A stretch of 35,564 nt of DNA from Candidatus Aminicenantota bacterium (GTDB lineage Bacteria; Acidobacteriota; Aminicenantia; Aminicenantales; CALLJL01), in assembly GCA_026416195.1 (NCBI GenBank), contig JAOAFQ010000195.1, positions 1 through 35,564 on the forward strand. Reading direction: 5' to 3'. A program made the translations under genes and the position numbers. The notes under the pieces were generated by a model. That model did no database searches. It saw only the letters and a list, made by a program, of their open reading frames with translations, and was not told where the DNA came from. Shown one piece after another: positions 11,668-30,897 of the stretch (position 1 is its first letter; each line of letters opens with the position of its first letter).

Positions 11668-12573
11668 GTGCTATTTGAACCTGAACTAAGACCAAATTGG
11701 TCCTTGAAGTTAGTTATTTTTCTCTTTTCCCTAGTTATTCACGGTTTTATCTTAATTCTTCTGATTCAGGCATTTACCCCTGTCACCATAATCAACTTTC
11801 CAGTAAAAGTCACCGCAGTAACCATTGTCCCCAGAGAAGGGCTGATTCTACCTTCTGGACCTGACCAGGGAACCTCAGCAGGAGCCACCATCAAAAGTAA
11901 AACGGCTGGAATTGGGGAGTCCGGACCATCAACTGCAAGGTTACAAGAAAAGATGGCTCTCCTTGATAGGGAGGCCACAATCCCTTTTTCTAAGCCCAGA
12001 CCGCCTGGTCCTATGCCTTATCCTCCCTTCAATCTCATTCCTCGCCCTAAAGGGGAAACGTCATCTTTTACCCTGAAGCTTCCAGCGCCACCTGAAAAGG
12101 AAAGAATCCAGCCATCTGAGCAGAGGTTAAGACCAGGCTCACCTCATGATTACTGGCGATATGTTTTAGCCATAGAACCAGGCAAAGAAAAAAAAGAAGC
12201 AATTTTTGGGGTCCCCATTATCAGTGGTTCAGGTCCTATTTCGCCTCAGGTCCCTCGAGTCTCGATTGAAGGCCCAGGATATGACCTTTCTCCCTGGGCC
12301 CAAGAAGTCGTGGCCCGCCTCCAAAAGAACTGGCAAATCACTGCCTCGAAAGCGGCACTAGAAAAAGGAACCCTTCATCTTCAGATTGGAGTTGACCGAA
12401 GCGGCGAGATCACCTTTATGCGAATCATCCTCTCTTCTCAGAAAGCAGCTTTCGATCGGGCAGCCTTAGAAGCAATTAATCTGAGCTTACCTCTTCCCCG
12501 TCTCCCCGAAGGATTGCCTACGGATTCTCTTGAATTGACAGTAATTTTCGAATGTGAAGAGAGTCGAAAATGA
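11668..12573 (+). CDS. TonB/TolA-family energy-transducer-like protein
   Basis: 301 aa. N-terminal TM (LVIFLFSLVIHGFILILLIQA), Pro-rich linker, C-terminal domain VARLQKNWQI...GVDRSGEITFMRIILSSQKAAFDRAALEAI..PLPRLPEG. GTG start. Confidence 0.78.
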   Translation: MLFEPELRPNWSLKLVIFLFSLVIHGFILILLIQAFTPVTIINFPVKVTAVTIVPREGLILPSGPDQGTSAGATIKSKTAGIGESGPSTARLQEKMALLDREATIPFSKPRPPGPMPYPPFNLIPRPKGETSSFTLKLPAPPEKERIQPSEQRLRPGSPHDYWRYVLAIEPGKEKKEAIFGVPIISGSGPISPQVPRVSIEGPGYDLSPWAQEVVARLQKNWQITASKAALEKGTLHLQIGVDRSGEITFMRIILSSQKAAFDRAALEAINLSLPLPRLPEGLPTDSLELTVIFECEESRK

Positions 12574-18387: not shown

Positions 18388-18594
18388 ATGTTTCTTTTCG
18401 GACCAATTGGACCAACGGAACTGCTGCTCATTCTTCTTATTGTTGTTATCATTTTTGGGGCCAAACGGCTACCTGAACTTGGGAAATCTCTCGGCGAAGG
18501 CATCAAGAATTTTCGCCGAGCAGTAAGTGGACGAAGTGACGAAGAGGAAAAAAAACTCGATAAAAATAAAACCAATTCATCTTCCAAAGAATGA
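18388..18594 (+). CDS. tatA: Sec-independent translocase subunit TatA/E
   Basis: [48 protein letters not shown] is a canonical TatA. AAAAGGAGGTGTCG precedes ATG 18388 (the ORF track's 18367 start is too far upstream). Confidence 0.93.
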
Positions 18595-20931: not shown

Positions 20932-21028
20932 TTTTTTAAGGGGCAAAAAATGGAAAGGAGGTGAAAAATCGGGGAAATGGAAGCAAATAAAAGTGTAGTT
21001 TTTAATTAAAGGAAGGGGAGGTACAAAA

Positions 21029-24000
21029 ATGATAAAAAAGAAAATTATTTTGTTTTGCCTTTTAATTTTTAGTTTTTTCCTTTTGGCTCAAGCCCAGAGA
21101 CAAACCGGTTCGATTCATGGTCGAGTAATTGATAAAGATGGCAATCCTTTGCCTGGGGCGACTGTAACTATTTCCGGGCCAGCCATGATGGGCACAAACT
21201 CCTACGTAACTTCTGAAGTGGGGGTCTTCCGCTTTCCTTCCCTCCTTCCTGGTGAATATGAAATTAAGGTTGAGATGCCGGGTTTTAAAACGCTAATTAG
21301 AAAAGGAGTTATGGTCAGTGTGGGCAAGACCACTGAAATTAATCTTGAACTTGAGGTAGCTAAGGTGGAAGAAGAAGTCACGGTGGTGGCGGCTTCTCCG
21401 GTCGTCGATGTTCAGTCAACTAAAATTAGTATCAATTATGGAACGCAATTCTTGACCAGTATTCCCCTGAACCGAGACCTTTATGATATTCAAAATACTC
21501 TTCCTGGTGCTATTGCCGATGGGGCCGATTATCGCCGAACTTCCTCCATTCTCGGGGGAACAGTCCGAAGCCAACTCTACGCGCTTGACGGAGTTCCTAT
21601 GAATGACCCAGCTACCTGGTATTCTATGGTTAACATCAATGTTGATGTTTATGAGGAAATCGAATTTCAGGTGGCCTCGCTTCCGGCGGAAGTTGGTCAA
21701 GCTGATTCCACCTATGTTAACATTGTGACGAAAAGTGGCGGTAACAAATTTTCTGGCAGTGGCGTCGTTTATTATACAGGGGATAAATTTGCGCAGGACC
21801 TTTTCACTCGAGATCAGATCAAAGCCCTTGGAGTTAATCCACCAGAAAAATACACCGATTCTCGCGACTTCTCACTCAATTTGGGCGGTCCTATCATCAG
21901 AGATCGTATCTGGTTTTTTGTCAATGGGCGCCGATTAACTTGGGATCAGGCTTATGCGGGAACTCCTGAAACGAGAATGTGGCGACTCGGCTTCACCGAC
22001 AGCCCTCACTACGATTTACGCCATGAAGAATGGATGTCCTTTGCCAAGCTGACTTTCCAAATTACGAAAAATCTTCGTTATATGGGCATGCTCCATTATA
22101 ATCATATTTATGAGCCAGTTTATTCTAATAGCGTTGGTGTTGATTATGCCGATTGTGCGACTGAAATCTGAGATCATGAAAATACTTACACCACTTCCCA
22201 TCAATTTAATTGGGTCTTAAACCAGAATACCTTCTTAGATATCCGTGGCTCTTATGTCTGGCGATATTTTCCAATAAGAAGCCGCAACGAAGGACAGTAT
22301 ACCTTCTGGTGTAATACCGTCAGGGTTTGGTGGGGCACAAGCCCTTATAATGATATTTATCATCGAATAAAGATTCCTTTGGTCGCTTCTTTAACCCATT
22401 TCAGGGATGACTTCCTTGGCGCAGCCCACGAATTCAAAGTTGGAGTAGAATTTGAGCAAACCGAATACCACCGTGATTGGTTCCGGGCTAATCCCTACTA
22501 TTCCTATTGGGCTGATTGGAACGCTAAAAACCCCTATTTTTATTCAACAACCAGAAGGCAAGGAAGATTGCGCATTCGTACTTGCCCGCCTGAGGAAGGT
22601 CAGTGGGATGTCCAGGATAACACCCGAAGATTTTCAGCCTATGCTCAAGATAGCCTTGTGGCCGGAAGATTAGCCATTAATTTAGGTCTCCGCTTCGACT
22701 ACTCTTACCAATATGAACCAGAACAAAAACGACCCAAACTTCGTTATAAATACGGTCCTTACGAACTCAACCCAGCTATCACTGATCCTAATGCCCTGCT
22801 TGAGGCCCTAAGAGCCCAATGGTACGCTGATCCGACCCTCCCACCCTATTTCCCCTTTGATGAACTGACCACTCCTTGGAAAAAAGTGGTAGAATTCAAA
22901 ACCTTCTCGCCGCGGATTGGATTCGTTTATGACCTTTTTGGGGATGGAAAAACAGCCTTCAAAATCTCCCTAAGCCGCTATTATGAGCCAGTTTGGTCGG
23001 CTAAATATAATGCCGCTCAAATTTTTGGCGCTTCAACGATTAACTATTATTGGTATGATGATAATGGCAATAAACTGATGGATCTTCCACCTACAGATAG
23101 ATATGTCCTGACTTCTTATCCCAATCAGGACCCCTACTATAATTACTATGTCAAAAATCTGAAGTGTCCCTATATGAACGAATTTGTTACCGCTGTTGAG
23201 CGAGAAATCTATAAAGACTTCAAACTTGGGCTTCAGTTCTTATGGAGAGAAAATAAGAACATCGTAGAGGATACCGATTTGAATAATGGCTACGATCCCA
23301 ATGCCAAGGACGAAAAGGGTCCAATTTGGATTCCTTTCACCTTCACTGATCCAGGCTTTGATGGAAAATGGGGAACTGAAGACGACCAGCAGATGACCGT
23401 TTACGGTCTAAGAAAAGATAGACCAGTACCAACGTGGAAAGGCATGAATCCCCCTGAAGCTAAGAGGAGATACTGGGCCGTCATTCTCACTTTTGATAAA
23501 CGCATGTCAAACCGATGGCAACTCAATGGATCTATTCTTTATAGTTCTTTCAAAGGAAATGCTAGCCCTGATTATAGTGCAACCGAAGGTGAAAGTACGA
23601 TGTTTGATGATCCTAACTCCCTTATAAACGCCTGGGGATCGGTTGTGTTTGATCATCCTTTGCAAATTCGAATTATGGGAACCTATATTCTTCCCTATGA
23701 TTTCATTCTCAGCGCTTATCTTCAATATCGTTCTGGTTCCCCTTGGAATAGAACTATAGCTCGGGTCTACTTCCCTCCGGAGATCGCGGCTCAGGTGCAA
23801 CAAACCTATGTCTCAGTCAATGCTGAGCCACCTGGAACTCGAAGAGGACCCTCCTATACCAATCTTGATATGAGAGTTGAAAAATCATTTCAAATCAACA
23901 ACTTAGGTAAAGTGGGAGTTTATCTTGACATCTTTAATGTCGCTGGCCGAAGTGGCATAAGTGTTAATCAAAATCCAGCTCCTTATCTTCGCTTTGACCG

Positions 24001-24097
24001 AACCCCTCCAGCCTATGAGATTTCAACTGTTTATGGCCAGATAACCAGTTGCTATGGGGTGCGTTCCTTCAGGCTTGGCCTGCGTTTCAATTTCTAA
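21029..24097 (+). pseudogene. TonB-dependent receptor 1 (Oar-like, carboxypeptidase-regulatory + plug + barrel) interrupted by a single in-frame TGA at 22169-22171
   Basis: ORFs 21029-22171 and 22379-24097 are in the same frame with no other stop between 22172 and 22379. The combined length of 1022 sense-position codons (including the TGA) matches the 1021 aa of the two downstream paralogues. C-terminus GVRSFRLGLRFNF. SD GGGGAGG before ATG. Confidence 0.9.
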
Positions 24098-24112
24098 AAA
24101 AGTAAAAAATGA

Positions 24113-24145
24113 GGGGGGAGGAGATTAACCTCCCCCCTTTTTTAT
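24113..24145 (+). terminator. Rho-independent terminator after receptor 1
   Basis: GGGGGGAGG-AGATTAA-CCTCCCCCC perfect 9 bp stem (24113-24137) followed by TTTTTTATTT. Confidence 0.92.
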
Positions 24146-24405
24146 TTGCCCTTTTTAGATTCAAATTCAAGAAAGTGAATTCGAATAATTGAATTAATAT
24201 ATTTTTTTGAATTAGTTTAAAAATTTTTTTATAAACCAATCTTAAATTTTCCCTTAGAAGTTAGTCCGTCCCGAGCCATCTTTTCATTAAAAATTGGGTA
24301 TGAATATTGCATATCTGATATTTTGGCAAAGGAGGTGAGATCGCGAAAACCCCAAGATTTAGGCCGAGTAAGCTTTTATTTAAGGCAAGAAAAAGGAGGT
24401 TAAGG

Positions 24406-27400
24406 ATGAGAAAACAAATCTTTGTATTTACACTTATTTTTTTTCTTATTATAGCGTCACTCCAGGCCCAAGAATTGACTGGCTCCCTAAAAGGGACAGT
24501 CACAGATATAGAGGGTAATCCTTTGCCTGGAGTTGCTGTGACTATTTCCTCCCCCGCCATCATGGGGACTCAGTCCTTCATCACCACCGAGACAGGTTCC
24601 TTCCGCTTTCCTTCCCTTCCACCTGGCACTTATAAGGTGGTAGCTGAATTAAAGGGATTTAAAACCGTAGAAAGAACCGATGTTATTGTCAGAGTCGGGA
24701 TGACAGTGACAGTGGATATTAAGATGGAAGTGGCAGCGGTGGAAGAAGAAATTACGGTGGTAGCGGCTTCCCCTGTGGTCGATGTCCAATCAAGTAAGCT
24801 TGCCGTGACGGTTGATTCCAATATGCTTAAGAATATCCCCATGCGCCGAGACCTCTATGATATCATGACCGCCGCTCCTGGCGTTGTCTCCGAAGGGGCC
24901 ACTTACCGCCGAACTTTCTCGGCCCATGGCGCAACTGTAAGAAGCAATACTACTGCCTTTGACGGCGTCAATATGAATGACCCGGTCGTCATGTACACTA
25001 TAACTAATATCAACTTTGATGTTATGGATGAGGTCGAAATTATTACGGCAGGACACCCTGCCTCTATTGGCTATACTGACGGCGCTTATGTCAATATTGT
25101 TACCAAAAGCGGGGGCAATCGTTTTTCAGGTGGAGCAACCGTTTATCATACCCAAGAAGGTTTAAATCAACATCTTTGGACTGATGAACAGATCACTGCC
25201 ATGAAAATTGCTAAGCCGGAAGTGGATAAGAGCTGGATTGATGGTTCCTTCACCTTAGGCGGGCCAATAATGATTGATAAGATCTGGTTCTTTACCAACG
25301 CCCGTTACATTAAACTGGAGAGAAAAACCAATTACATCGGTCCTTGGACTGACTTTTTTGGTCGGACTCATTATCCCTATAATTGGACTCATGAAGAAAA
25401 GATGGGCTTCATTAAGTTAACCTCTCAGCTTTCTCCCAAGCTCAAATTCATGGGCATGTTCAATATGGTTGATATCTATCGTCCCATGTATGAGGAACCA
25501 GGATCACGAACTAACTTCATCTCTACTCGGACTTGGGACCACGAAAAGGGCTATACTGGTAACGCTATTATCAATTACATCCTCAATCAGAATACTTTTG
25601 TTGATCTTCGTTTCGGTTATGTCCATCGTTACTTTCCTCTACCTCTAAAAAATGAGGTTAAGGATTTACCTTTGATTGACGACTTGGGAGACCTTTACAA
25701 CAGTTTAACCACCGCCCGTTTCAATGAAACTTATTTGCGCAAACGCCTTCAAACTGGTCTTTATTTCACCCGCTTTGCAGATAATTTGCTTGGGGGAAGC
25801 CATGAAATTAAAGCTGGGATAGAATATGAAAATACCTATGGCGATTGGGATTGGTGGCGCAAGGACAATATGATTTGGTATATCGATAGTCGTAACCCCA
25901 ATCCTTATTATCGTTATTCTACTTATGGCTGGGTCGCTTTTTACATTTGCGGTCCAGACCAAGGTTCAACCAAAATTATTGATCGGGGTGGCCGAATTGG
26001 CGCCTACCTTCAAGATGCTTTTACTTTCAAAGATAGATTGACTCTAAATATAGGCCTGCGCTTTGACCGAAGTTGGGGGTGGAAACCAGCCGTAACCAAG
26101 AAGGCCGCCGGCAATCCTCTTTCTGTGTGGTTGGGCGAAAATATTGTCCGTCCTTGGGTGGCAACTAATTACCCCCAGAATTTCCCCAATGGCCTCAATC
26201 CTTGGGGAGATGCCACAGCACCTGAATGGAGCAACATTATTAACTGGAACTCCTTTTCGCCCCGTTTTGGCTTAACCTACGATCTCTTTGGCCATGGACG
26301 AACGGCTCTAAAATTCTCCTTTAACCGCTATACTGAATACCTCATGCTTCAGTATTTCTCCACTCTGCATCCCTTCTATCCTCGTTCTTTTTCTTTCCGT
26401 TGGTGGGATACTAATGGCGACAATTATCCCAATATTGGTGATACTTTCACTATGTATTCGGCCGATTTCCGAGGCATGGATCCTGAGTTTGCCAAGAAGC
26501 GCCTCGATCCTAACACCAAGTCGCCCTATAATGACGAGTTTCTAGTAGGTCTTCAACATGAGCTCTTCCGGAATTTCTCTTTAGGGATAAATTTCATTTA
26601 TAAAAACAAAAGCCATATTCTTGAAGATTCCCTTTATAATGCCGATTCGGGCCAATATTGGTACCATATTGATCAAGCTGAAGCTAAAAAATATTGGATC
26701 CCCTTTACGACGACTATCCCAGCTCAGGATGATTACCCGGCCCGAACAGTAACCTTATATATCCGCTCAAACGCTGCACCTCCTCTTTTCTACCGATTTC
26801 ACAATGTCCCCGAATTATATCGAAAATATTGGGCCATCGAATTTATTTTTAACAAGCGAATGTCTGAAGGTTGGCAAGTAAACGGTTCAATTGTTTATAG
26901 CAAAGCTTACGGCAATATCTACGGCTTCTATGACTACTCCTGGGGCTGGTCAGGCTTTGGCGATAATCCCAATACCTTTATCAATTATGACGGCCGACTA
27001 GATATCGATCGTCCCCTTCAGATTAAACTAATGGGTACGGCCCAGCTCCCATGGAAAATTTATCTTAGCGGCTACTACCAGTTTTATAGTGGCGCACCTT
27101 GGGTAACGAGCGGTTCAGTTTATCCCCCAGCAGCTTGGTGTACCGCCAATAACGCTTATCAAGATTATTATGGTGTCCTCTTTGAATCGCTTTCAAAGCC
27201 TCGTCGCTATCCTTCCTGGAATCAGCTCGATCTGCGAATCGAAAAGGAATTCGCTATTAGTAAATTCGGCCGCCTTGGAATTTATGTCGACGCGATTAAT
27301 GTGCTTGGCTACACCAGCGTTAATCTTGGCCTTAATGACACCCAATATTGGTTCCCTTCGGCCGAAGGCGCTAACCAGCCGGGAACTAAAACTCTTTACA

Positions 27401-27471
27401 GCTCCTATAAAGTAATTAGCTCCGTTACTGGCGTTAGAACCATTAAGGTCAGCGCTAGGTTCAGTTTCTAA
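24406..27471 (+). CDS. TonB-dependent receptor 2 (Oar-like)
   Basis: 1021 aa. Signal peptide; GSLKGTVTDIEGNPLPGVAVTISSP carboxypeptidase-regulatory domain; EEEITVVAASPVVDVQSSK linker; plug with GHPASIGYTDGAYVNIVTKSGGNRFSGG; aromatic C-terminus VKVSARFSF-type. Confidence 0.95.
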   Translation: MRKQIFVFTLIFFLIIASLQAQELTGSLKGTVTDIEGNPLPGVAVTISSPAIMGTQSFITTETGSFRFPSLPPGTYKVVAELKGFKTVERTDVIVRVGMTVTVDIKMEVAAVEEEITVVAASPVVDVQSSKLAVTVDSNMLKNIPMRRDLYDIMTAAPGVVSEGATYRRTFSAHGATVRSNTTAFDGVNMNDPVVMYTITNINFDVMDEVEIITAGHPASIGYTDGAYVNIVTKSGGNRFSGGATVYHTQEGLNQHLWTDEQITAMKIAKPEVDKSWIDGSFTLGGPIMIDKIWFFTNARYIKLERKTNYIGPWTDFFGRTHYPYNWTHEEKMGFIKLTSQLSPKLKFMGMFNMVDIYRPMYEEPGSRTNFISTRTWDHEKGYTGNAIINYILNQNTFVDLRFGYVHRYFPLPLKNEVKDLPLIDDLGDLYNSLTTARFNETYLRKRLQTGLYFTRFADNLLGGSHEIKAGIEYENTYGDWDWWRKDNMIWYIDSRNPNPYYRYSTYGWVAFYICGPDQGSTKIIDRGGRIGAYLQDAFTFKDRLTLNIGLRFDRSWGWKPAVTKKAAGNPLSVWLGENIVRPWVATNYPQNFPNGLNPWGDATAPEWSNIINWNSFSPRFGLTYDLFGHGRTALKFSFNRYTEYLMLQYFSTLHPFYPRSFSFRWWDTNGDNYPNIGDTFTMYSADFRGMDPEFAKKRLDPNTKSPYNDEFLVGLQHELFRNFSLGINFIYKNKSHILEDSLYNADSGQYWYHIDQAEAKKYWIPFTTTIPAQDDYPARTVTLYIRSNAAPPLFYRFHNVPELYRKYWAIEFIFNKRMSEGWQVNGSIVYSKAYGNIYGFYDYSWGWSGFGDNPNTFINYDGRLDIDRPLQIKLMGTAQLPWKIYLSGYYQFYSGAPWVTSGSVYPPAAWCTANNAYQDYYGVLFESLSKPRRYPSWNQLDLRIEKEFAISKFGRLGIYVDAINVLGYTSVNLGLNDTQYWFPSAEGANQPGTKTLYSSYKVISSVTGVRTIKVSARFSF

Positions 27472-27489
27472 AAAAGGCGGAAAAAAAAA

Positions 27490-27520
27490 GGGCCCCTTCA
27501 GGGGCCCTTTTTTTTCTTTT
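27490..27520 (+). terminator. Rho-independent terminator after receptor 2
   Basis: GGGCCCC-TTCA-GGGGCCC (27490-27507) flanked by an A tract and followed by TTTTTTTTCTTTTTT. Confidence 0.93.
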
Positions 27521-27575
27521 TTCGCTTATTTTTGCTAATCAATAGAATTTCCTGAATCATTAATTATTCGATATT

Positions 27576-27617
27576 TTGAATTCAATTAATTGAATCAATC
27601 CAATTATTTGAATTCAA
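27576..27617. promoter_or_regulatory. Pair of perfect TTGAATTCAA palindromes in the receptor 3 upstream region
   Basis: TTGAATTCAA at 27576-27585 and again at 27608-27617 (32 nt apart), with further ATTGAAT-like half sites between. Confidence 0.4.
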
Positions 27618-27831
27618 TATAGGCTGATCCCTTAGAAACTTAATTTCTTCTTCCTAAATTTTTTTAAACCCTATATCAGTTAATTGGCACAAATTTTGCT
27701 TTACAATTTATTGGATTTTATCCAATTAATTATTCACTGAAAGGGGGTGAAAAGAAGGGTTAATTTCAATTAGGTCATAAGGGAAATAAGAAGGGGGAAA
27801 GGATTTAAAAGGAAAAAAGGAGGTCGAGTCA

Positions 27832-30800
27832 ATGAAAATTAGAAAATTGGTTTTTTTGGTGCTATTGGTTTTCTTTGTTTCAAGGCTTCAAGGTCAAGAA
27901 TTAACTGGTTCCCTTAGGGGAACAATCACTGATCCTGAAGGGCACCCTCTACCTGGGGTTTCAGTCACTATCTCCTCGCCCGTTTTAATGGGAACGCGTT
28001 CCTTTGTTACCACTGAAACTGGTACTTTCCGATTCCCATCTCTCCCTCCAGGTGCCTATAAAGTTGTAGCCGAATTAAAAGGTTTTAAAACGGTTGAAAG
28101 AACTGATGTCATCGTTAGAGTTGGGATGACAGTGACAATTGACATTAAAATGGAACCGGCTCCAGTGGCCGAAGAAATAGTGGTTGTTGCACCTACGCCA
28201 GTTGTCGACATTCAATCAAGTAAATTATCAATAACCGTTGACTCAAGTATGATCCAGAATCTTCCCATAAGACGCGACCTGTATGATATTATGACAGCCG
28301 CTCCTGGAGTTGTTTCTGAATACGCTACTTATAGAAGAACTTTCTCGGCTCACGGCTCAACGGTCAGGGGCAATACCACTGCTTTTGATGGGGTCAATAT
28401 GAACGATCCTGTGGTCAGTTACACCATGACCAATATCAATTTCGATGTTATGGAGGAAGTTGAGATTATCACCGCTGGGCATCCTGCTTCTGTTGGATAT
28501 ACTGATGGGGCTTATGTCAATGTGGTCACTAAGAGCGGGGGTAATAGGTTTTCTGGAGGAGCTATTATTTATCACACCCAAGAAGGTTTTAATCAGCATC
28601 TTTGGACTGACGAGCAAATTCGGTCCCTAAATGTTTCTAAGCCTGAAGTCGATAAAAGCTGGTGGGATGGATCCTTTACTTTGGGTGGCCCAATTATGAT
28701 TGATAAGCTTTGGTTCTTCACCAATGGCCGTTACATCAGATTGGAAAGAAAAACTAATTTTGTTGGACCTTGGACTGATTTCTTTGGTCGCACCCATAAT
28801 CCTTATAATTGGACGCATGAAGAAACCATGGGCTTCTTCAAACTAACTTCCCAGCTTTCCCAAAAAATGAAACTTATGGGGATGTTCAATTTAGTGGATA
28901 TTTATCGGCCAATGTATGAAGAACCTGGCCCAAGGCAACCCTTTATTTCAACTCGAATCTGGGATCATGAAAAGGGTTATACTGGCAATGGGATTGTCAA
29001 TTACGTCCTTAGCCAGAACACTTTTCTAGATATCAGAATTGGTTATATTCATCGCTGGTTCCCTATCCCGATGCAAAAGGAAGCTCAAGATCTGCCTTGG
29101 ATTGACGATGCTGGTGACCTCTATGGCGGCCTGACTACAGCTCGGTTCAACGAGACATACTTACGCAAGAGACTTCAGTTAGGCGGCTATTTCACTCATT
29201 TCATAGATAACTGGCTTGGTGGCAACCATGAAATCAAAGGTGGTATTGAATATGAAAACACTTACGGTGATTGGGACTGGTGGCGCAAAGATAATATGAT
29301 TTGGTATATCGACAGCCGTAATGCCAATCCCTACTATTATTTTGGCGATTCTGGTTATGTCCTCTTCTACATCTGTGGGGCCGAAAAAGGTTCAAGCAAA
29401 ATTATCGACCGTGGAGGTCGAATAGGGGCTTATCTTCAAAATTCAGCGACCATCGCCGACAGATTAACCATAAATTTAGGCATTCGCTTTGATCGTTCTT
29501 GGGGGTGGAAGCCAGAAGTGAAAAAATCAGCTTCAGGTAACCCTCTTTCTGTCTATCTTGGTGAAACTATTGTTAAGCCTTATATTGCCTCCCGTTATCC
29601 TGATCGATTCCCGGCTGGCATCAATCCTTGGGGCGAATTGGTAGCCAAGAAGTGGGATGACATCATCAATTGGAATGCCTTTTCACCTCGATTTGGTTTA
29701 ACCTATGACCTGTTTGGAAATGGTCGGACGGCCTTTAAGTTCTCTTTCAACCGTTATACCGAATATTTGATGCTCCAATATTTTTCAACCCTTCATCCTT
29801 TTTATCCCAAGAGCTACGGCTTTTATTGGTGGGATGAGAATCGAAATAATAAACCCGACATTGGCGATAGGTTTTCCATTTACGGCACTCCCGATTTTAG
29901 AGAGATGGATCTAGAATTTGCCAAATTGAAACTCAATCCTGATACCAATTCTGCCTATAGCGATGAAATTATGACCGGTATTTGGCATGAGTTATTTAAG
30001 AACTTCTCTGTCGGTCTTAATTTCATTTACAAAGAAAGAAAAAATACCTTGGAAGATGTTAGATATGCTCCTGATACTAAGGAATATTGGTATCATTTAG
30101 ACCAACCGGCAGCTAAAAAATACTGGATACCTTTTACCACTACCGTTCCTGGAACTGACGCTTATCCTGATCGAACAGTTACTTTTTATGTCCTGTCTAA
30201 TGATGCTCCGCCAACTCTTTACCATTTAACCAACGTCCCCGAGTTAGTAAGGAAATATTGGGCTTTTGAATTAATTTTCAACAAAAGAATGTCAGAAGGC
30301 TGGCAACTAAGTGGCTCTGTCGTGTATTCTAAAGCTTATGGAAATATTGGAGGTTGGTTTGGGGAAAGCTGGGGTTGGTCAGGCGCAGGTGATAGTCCTA
30401 ACTGGTTCGTTAATCGATGGGGAAGACAATCGGTTGATCGGCCTCTCCAAATCAAGCTCATGGGTACGGTTCAATTACCCTACCGAATTTATCTCAGTGG
30501 GTATTATCAATATTTTAGCGGATCTCCCTGGGAAAGAAGTGCCAGCATCCGACCACCAACAGCTTGGTGCACTGCCAATAGGGCTCAAAGATTATGGTAT
30601 AGCGTGTTAATCGAGCAAGCTGGTTCAAGGAGAGGCAGAGCGTGGAATACCATGGATGCGAGAGTTGAAAAAGAATTTTCCCTTGGCAAGGCTGGAAGAA
30701 TCGGCCTTTATGCTGATATCACTAACCTTTTTGGTTGGTCAGATGTTTCAGTCGGTCTTTCTGACGTTTGGCGTTGGGAACCTGTCGCTGAGGGAGCTAA

Positions 30801-30897
30801 TCAGCCCGGAACAAAAACCCTTTATACTTCCTATAAAGTAGTGAGTTCTGTTTCCGGGGTCAGAACTTTGAAACTTTCGATTCGCTATAGTTTTTAA
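27832..30897 (+). CDS. TonB-dependent receptor 3 (Oar-like)
   Basis: 1021 aa, collinear with receptor 2 throughout. GSLRGTITDPEGHPLPGVSVTISSP, TPVVDIQSSKLSITVDSSMIQNLPIRRDLYDIMTAAPGV, C-terminus TLKLSIRYSF. SD AAAGGAGG before ATG. Confidence 0.95.
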   Translation: MKIRKLVFLVLLVFFVSRLQGQELTGSLRGTITDPEGHPLPGVSVTISSPVLMGTRSFVTTETGTFRFPSLPPGAYKVVAELKGFKTVERTDVIVRVGMTVTIDIKMEPAPVAEEIVVVAPTPVVDIQSSKLSITVDSSMIQNLPIRRDLYDIMTAAPGVVSEYATYRRTFSAHGSTVRGNTTAFDGVNMNDPVVSYTMTNINFDVMEEVEIITAGHPASVGYTDGAYVNVVTKSGGNRFSGGAIIYHTQEGFNQHLWTDEQIRSLNVSKPEVDKSWWDGSFTLGGPIMIDKLWFFTNGRYIRLERKTNFVGPWTDFFGRTHNPYNWTHEETMGFFKLTSQLSQKMKLMGMFNLVDIYRPMYEEPGPRQPFISTRIWDHEKGYTGNGIVNYVLSQNTFLDIRIGYIHRWFPIPMQKEAQDLPWIDDAGDLYGGLTTARFNETYLRKRLQLGGYFTHFIDNWLGGNHEIKGGIEYENTYGDWDWWRKDNMIWYIDSRNANPYYYFGDSGYVLFYICGAEKGSSKIIDRGGRIGAYLQNSATIADRLTINLGIRFDRSWGWKPEVKKSASGNPLSVYLGETIVKPYIASRYPDRFPAGINPWGELVAKKWDDIINWNAFSPRFGLTYDLFGNGRTAFKFSFNRYTEYLMLQYFSTLHPFYPKSYGFYWWDENRNNKPDIGDRFSIYGTPDFREMDLEFAKLKLNPDTNSAYSDEIMTGIWHELFKNFSVGLNFIYKERKNTLEDVRYAPDTKEYWYHLDQPAAKKYWIPFTTTVPGTDAYPDRTVTFYVLSNDAPPTLYHLTNVPELVRKYWAFELIFNKRMSEGWQLSGSVVYSKAYGNIGGWFGESWGWSGAGDSPNWFVNRWGRQSVDRPLQIKLMGTVQLPYRIYLSGYYQYFSGSPWERSASIRPPTAWCTANRAQRLWYSVLIEQAGSRRGRAWNTMDARVEKEFSLGKAGRIGLYADITNLFGWSDVSVGLSDVWRWEPVAEGANQPGTKTLYTSYKVVSSVSGVRTLKLSIRYSF

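Follow-up and report, generated by a model that had tools for sequence, protein, structure and literature searches.

A single in-frame TGA interrupts an outer-membrane receptor gene that is otherwise whole in a bacterial draft genome: probably a very recent nonsense mutation

The window, a stretch of 35,564 nucleotides, corresponds to contig 82 in a draft genome of 2.88 Mb (235 contigs, 94% complete) and encodes three related receptors in tandem. An earlier note on this DNA had reported a single in-frame TGA at 22169-22171 in the first of these, in a gene that otherwise looked intact, and our reading of the frame bore this out: it starts with ATG at 21029, contains this single internal stop, stays open for 641 further codons and ends with TAA at 24095-24097. 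The features of the locus are as follows.

21029..24097, + strand: receptor 1, with CarboxypepD_reg domain, plug and outer-membrane barrel (PF13620, PF25183); 1,022 codons with one TGA read through
21029..22171, + strand: predicted truncated product of 380 aa, holding the signal/CarboxypepD_reg domain, the plug and only the start of the barrel (domain positions from Pfam)
22169..22171, + strand: in-frame TGA, codon 381, aligned with TGG (Trp) of the paralogues and near orthologues
22172..24094, + strand: 641 open codons 3′ of the stop, which cover most of the barrel
24406..27471, + strand: receptor 2, an intact paralogue with ~40% identity to receptor 1 and 86% identity to the second receptor of G001, a genome of the same genus
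27832..30897, + strand: receptor 3, an intact paralogue with ~71% DNA identity to receptor 2

Translated with TGA as Trp to give the read-through frame, receptor 1 matched PF13620 at 71.7 bits (Pfam cut-off 32.3) and PF25183 at 118 bits (cut-off 30). Its homology to intact orthologues of ~1,025 residues spans both sides of the stop, which ruled out a chance open reading frame. The codons quoted earlier for receptor 1 were correct, and those for the two paralogues, ACT CGG ACT TGG GAC CAC GAA AAG in receptor 2 (TGG at 25534) and ACT CGA ATC TGG GAT CAT GAA AAG in receptor 3 (TGG at 28960), were found as given; the mass of the read-through product, put at ~112 kDa in the earlier note, came to about 118 kDa when recomputed. 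We also considered re-initiation 3′ of the stop, which seems unlikely from the sequence: the first in-frame start codon is TTG, at 22379, for which no ribosome-binding site could be recognised, a product begun there would be without signal peptide and plug, and the ATG at 22176 belongs to another frame, which soon runs into a stop. An Rfam search of 21000-24500 returned no match above the gathering score. Receptors 2 and 3 (24406-30897) are tandem copies for which we found one counterpart only at the corresponding place in G001, a difference that would reflect either a gain here or a loss in G001.

We compared receptor 1 with its orthologues, as the earlier note had suggested, and found the G001 orthologue to be intact, with 1,024 codons and 87% amino-acid identity. 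When orthologues and paralogues were aligned, the codon at the site of the stop was TGG in the nearer homologues and CGG, CTG, GTG or TTG in most of the distant ones, so that the aligned residue is Trp in near relatives and mostly Arg, Leu or Val in distant ones. When a 182-residue segment was searched in 94 genomes of the order, the receptor 1 TGA was the only internal stop among the matches listed, and when the full protein was searched in 59 genomes, the sole other internal stop among the matches listed was a TAA, which lay in a receptor from another genome (G010). Among the matches listed, then, the TGA appears to be private to the source genome.

Against G001, the synonymous sites of receptor 1 were saturated (pS 0.80 overall) and dN was 0.08; the part before the stop gave dN 0.075 and pS 0.75, and the part after it gave dN 0.084 and pS 0.83. 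This two-sided dN comparison cannot by itself separate a pseudogene from readthrough, since in a dead receptor selection would be relaxed before and after the stop alike. Branch changes stood at ~55:29 for receptor 1 with three different outgroups, and at ~58:30 for the intact receptor 2 with receptor 3 as outgroup. Since the receptor 2 ratio matches that of receptor 1, the faster rate is not special to the stop-bearing gene, and since the changes on the receptor 1 branch match those of its intact neighbour, neutral decay has not had time to set in. Neither the dN and pS values nor the branch counts gave any detectable sign of relaxed selection on receptor 1, as would be expected of a very recent stop. 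These counts suggest that receptor 1 was under constraint until very recently, and the inactivation, if real, would date roughly to the final few per cent of this lineage, an age bound that comes from one comparison, G001 being the sole close relative compared.

We then asked how frequent mid-gene stops are, comparing ~763 kb of the source genome with 1.56 Mb of G001. Across 295 orthologue-like genes of the source genome (108,133 codons), the receptor 1 TGA was the only mid-gene stop, the remaining stops lying close to where the alignments end, in places with differing start and end calls, and no frameshifts were found in the same set. In the reverse direction, G001 had one comparable stop, a TAA within a conserved gene (G001:C9, L186 14392) whose counterpart in the source genome is open (L161 1004-3206). 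Both genomes thus carry about one isolated nonsense codon per 100,000 codons, with one event each way, and on the strength of one event per direction nothing in the survey marks out UGA. A paralogue of receptor 1 in G001 (~55% identity; G001:C9, about 80-83 kb; L186 1-3100) is split over three frames and looks like a more advanced receptor pseudogene.

That a TGA occupies a Trp position could suggest a change of code in which UGA is read as Trp across the whole genome. The earlier note had judged genome-wide recoding unlikely, citing TGA stops at ATGA junctions at 12570 and 18591, and our results went further and refuted it. Both junctions hold real UGA stops, that at 18591 closing a short frame. 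RF2 is present in the source genome, with its SPF motif, and in both genomes (G000:C86 and G001:C17) its gene still carries the programmed +1 frameshift site GGT TTT CTT TGA C. In this well-established system the classical CTT-TGA-C site serves autoregulation, which implies that termination at UGA by RF2 is under surveillance. TGA terminates 94 of the 283 conserved genes sampled, none of the 44 matches to the tRNA family in this 94% complete assembly had a UCA anticodon, and the 295-gene survey held no second mid-gene TGA, which leaves a change of code with negligible probability. The short frame ending at 18592-18594 presumably encodes a TatA-like protein, and its TGA falls in the ATGA overlap with a methyltransferase-domain gene at 18591.

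Reading of the UGA as selenocysteine was another candidate, given that the machinery for it appears to be encoded in the source genome: we found a tRNA-Sec (G000:C103:2553-2645, 74.5 bits), a fragment of the SelA gene (G000:C137) and, on the tRNA-Sec contig C103, a fragment that we take to be the C-terminus of SelB. SelA was not found in G001, so members of the genus may differ in their use of selenocysteine. Counted from the UGA, however, 42 nt fold with zero energy and 60 nt fold worse than most shuffles, and no aligned sequence has Cys at the site. We rejected selenocysteine at codon 381, which we regard as extremely improbable, on the missing hairpin and the residues of the homologues.

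The explanations left to weigh include three others that the earlier note had proposed beside a recent nonsense mutation, namely phase-variable inactivation, readthrough and error. With three related receptors in tandem, the loss of one could be tolerated, and a reversible inactivation of one of the three would be conceivable on that ground. The change is a plain substitution, though, with no direct or inverted repeat within 100 bases of the site, and of the inverted repeats in the 10-kb region, which are weak, none has an arm at the TGA. Without repeats or an invertible element at the TGA we rejected phase variation, which we consider highly improbable. A better case can be made for leaky readthrough, in which a near-cognate tRNA-Trp allows a certain amount of full-length receptor to be made, at a level reduced by the stop, since UGA is generally the leakiest stop codon and both the frame and the constraint are kept across the stop. 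It is nevertheless very unlikely, as no relative has the stop among the matches listed, no stable structure was found in the 42 or 60 nt 3′ of the TGA, and the G that follows it is unremarkable (21 of the 94 TGA stops in the sampled genes are followed likewise). The tRNA-Trp (anticodon CCA) carries A9 and G24, and its anticodon stem, GCGGT/ACCGC, has all five pairs, whereas reading of UGA by tRNA-Trp is promoted by the Hirsh change G24A, by A9C and by a 4-bp anticodon stem (PMC13092985); judged by its sequence, the tRNA is canonical and lacks the known readthrough-promoting changes. We give correspondingly little credence, marginally less than to leakage as such, to the idea that this normal tRNA-Trp reads the TGA at a useful level, with the stop acting as a dimmer that holds full-length receptor at a low dose.

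That one base of this draft metagenome assembly is wrong, through sequencing or consensus calling, and that the gene is intact in the cell is also unlikely, yet it deserves more serious consideration. The draft is fragmented into 235 contigs, and the lone substitution lies in a gene that is otherwise undamaged and whose same-genus orthologue is open. Such errors are rare, on the other hand, with one mid-gene stop and no frameshift in the 108,133 orthologue-aligned codons, although a few could still occur genome-wide. What we observed is one stop, private to this genome among the matches listed, in a still-constrained gene alongside normal UGA-decoding machinery, and similar isolated stops occur elsewhere, as TAA in the conserved G001 gene and in the G010 receptor. 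Of the four explanations in the earlier note, recent nonsense mutation fits best; phase variation falls for want of a repeat, programmed readthrough finds no positive support, with normal decoding, no structure after the TGA and an unshared stop, and error keeps the lesser standing given above. In our judgement the probable explanation is a plain nonsense change of very recent origin, or an allele that segregates among the cells sampled. Three points weigh against a nonsense allele: a one-base consensus error would look identical, functional readthrough would likewise leave an intact, constrained frame on both sides, and the age bound comes from a single close relative.

If the TGA is a nonsense allele, translation would end at codon 381, the 380-residue piece set free would lack most of the barrel, and receptor 1 would be lost in the cells that carry the allele, where the two adjacent paralogues would remain. 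A genuine base, termination at the TGA and loss of receptor function are what we infer here. The stop in receptor 1 matters little beyond annotation, and the case shows how checks of tRNA-Trp, RF2, stop usage, relatives and the genome-wide rate can tell a striking lone stop in a draft genome from recoding. Were readthrough shown after all, it would offer one natural example of a leaky stop setting receptor dosage.

A published survey argues that bacteria commonly tolerate in-frame stops, which are mostly short-lived and on the scale of population polymorphism (PMC7918605). Receptor 1 shares with recent nonsense alleles and young pseudogenes of bacteria (PMC7918605) a lone in-frame stop within a gene that is otherwise under constraint; it differs in that one genome carries the stop, so that persistence cannot be shown. 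Our literature search for a nonsense-mutated receptor like this one found nothing relevant. Compared with bacterial selenoproteins, the likeness lies in the selenocysteine machinery apparently present in the genome, and the differences are that no hairpin follows the UGA and that near relatives have Trp, not Cys. With readthrough or reassignment of UGA to Trp by an altered tRNA-Trp (PMC13092985), the case has in common a TGA at a Trp position, but here the tRNA-Trp is canonical, RF2 is present and one gene is affected. From the CarboxypepD_reg/OMP_b-brl_4 receptors (PF13620, PF25183), which it matches in domains and in length, receptor 1 differs by its premature stop.
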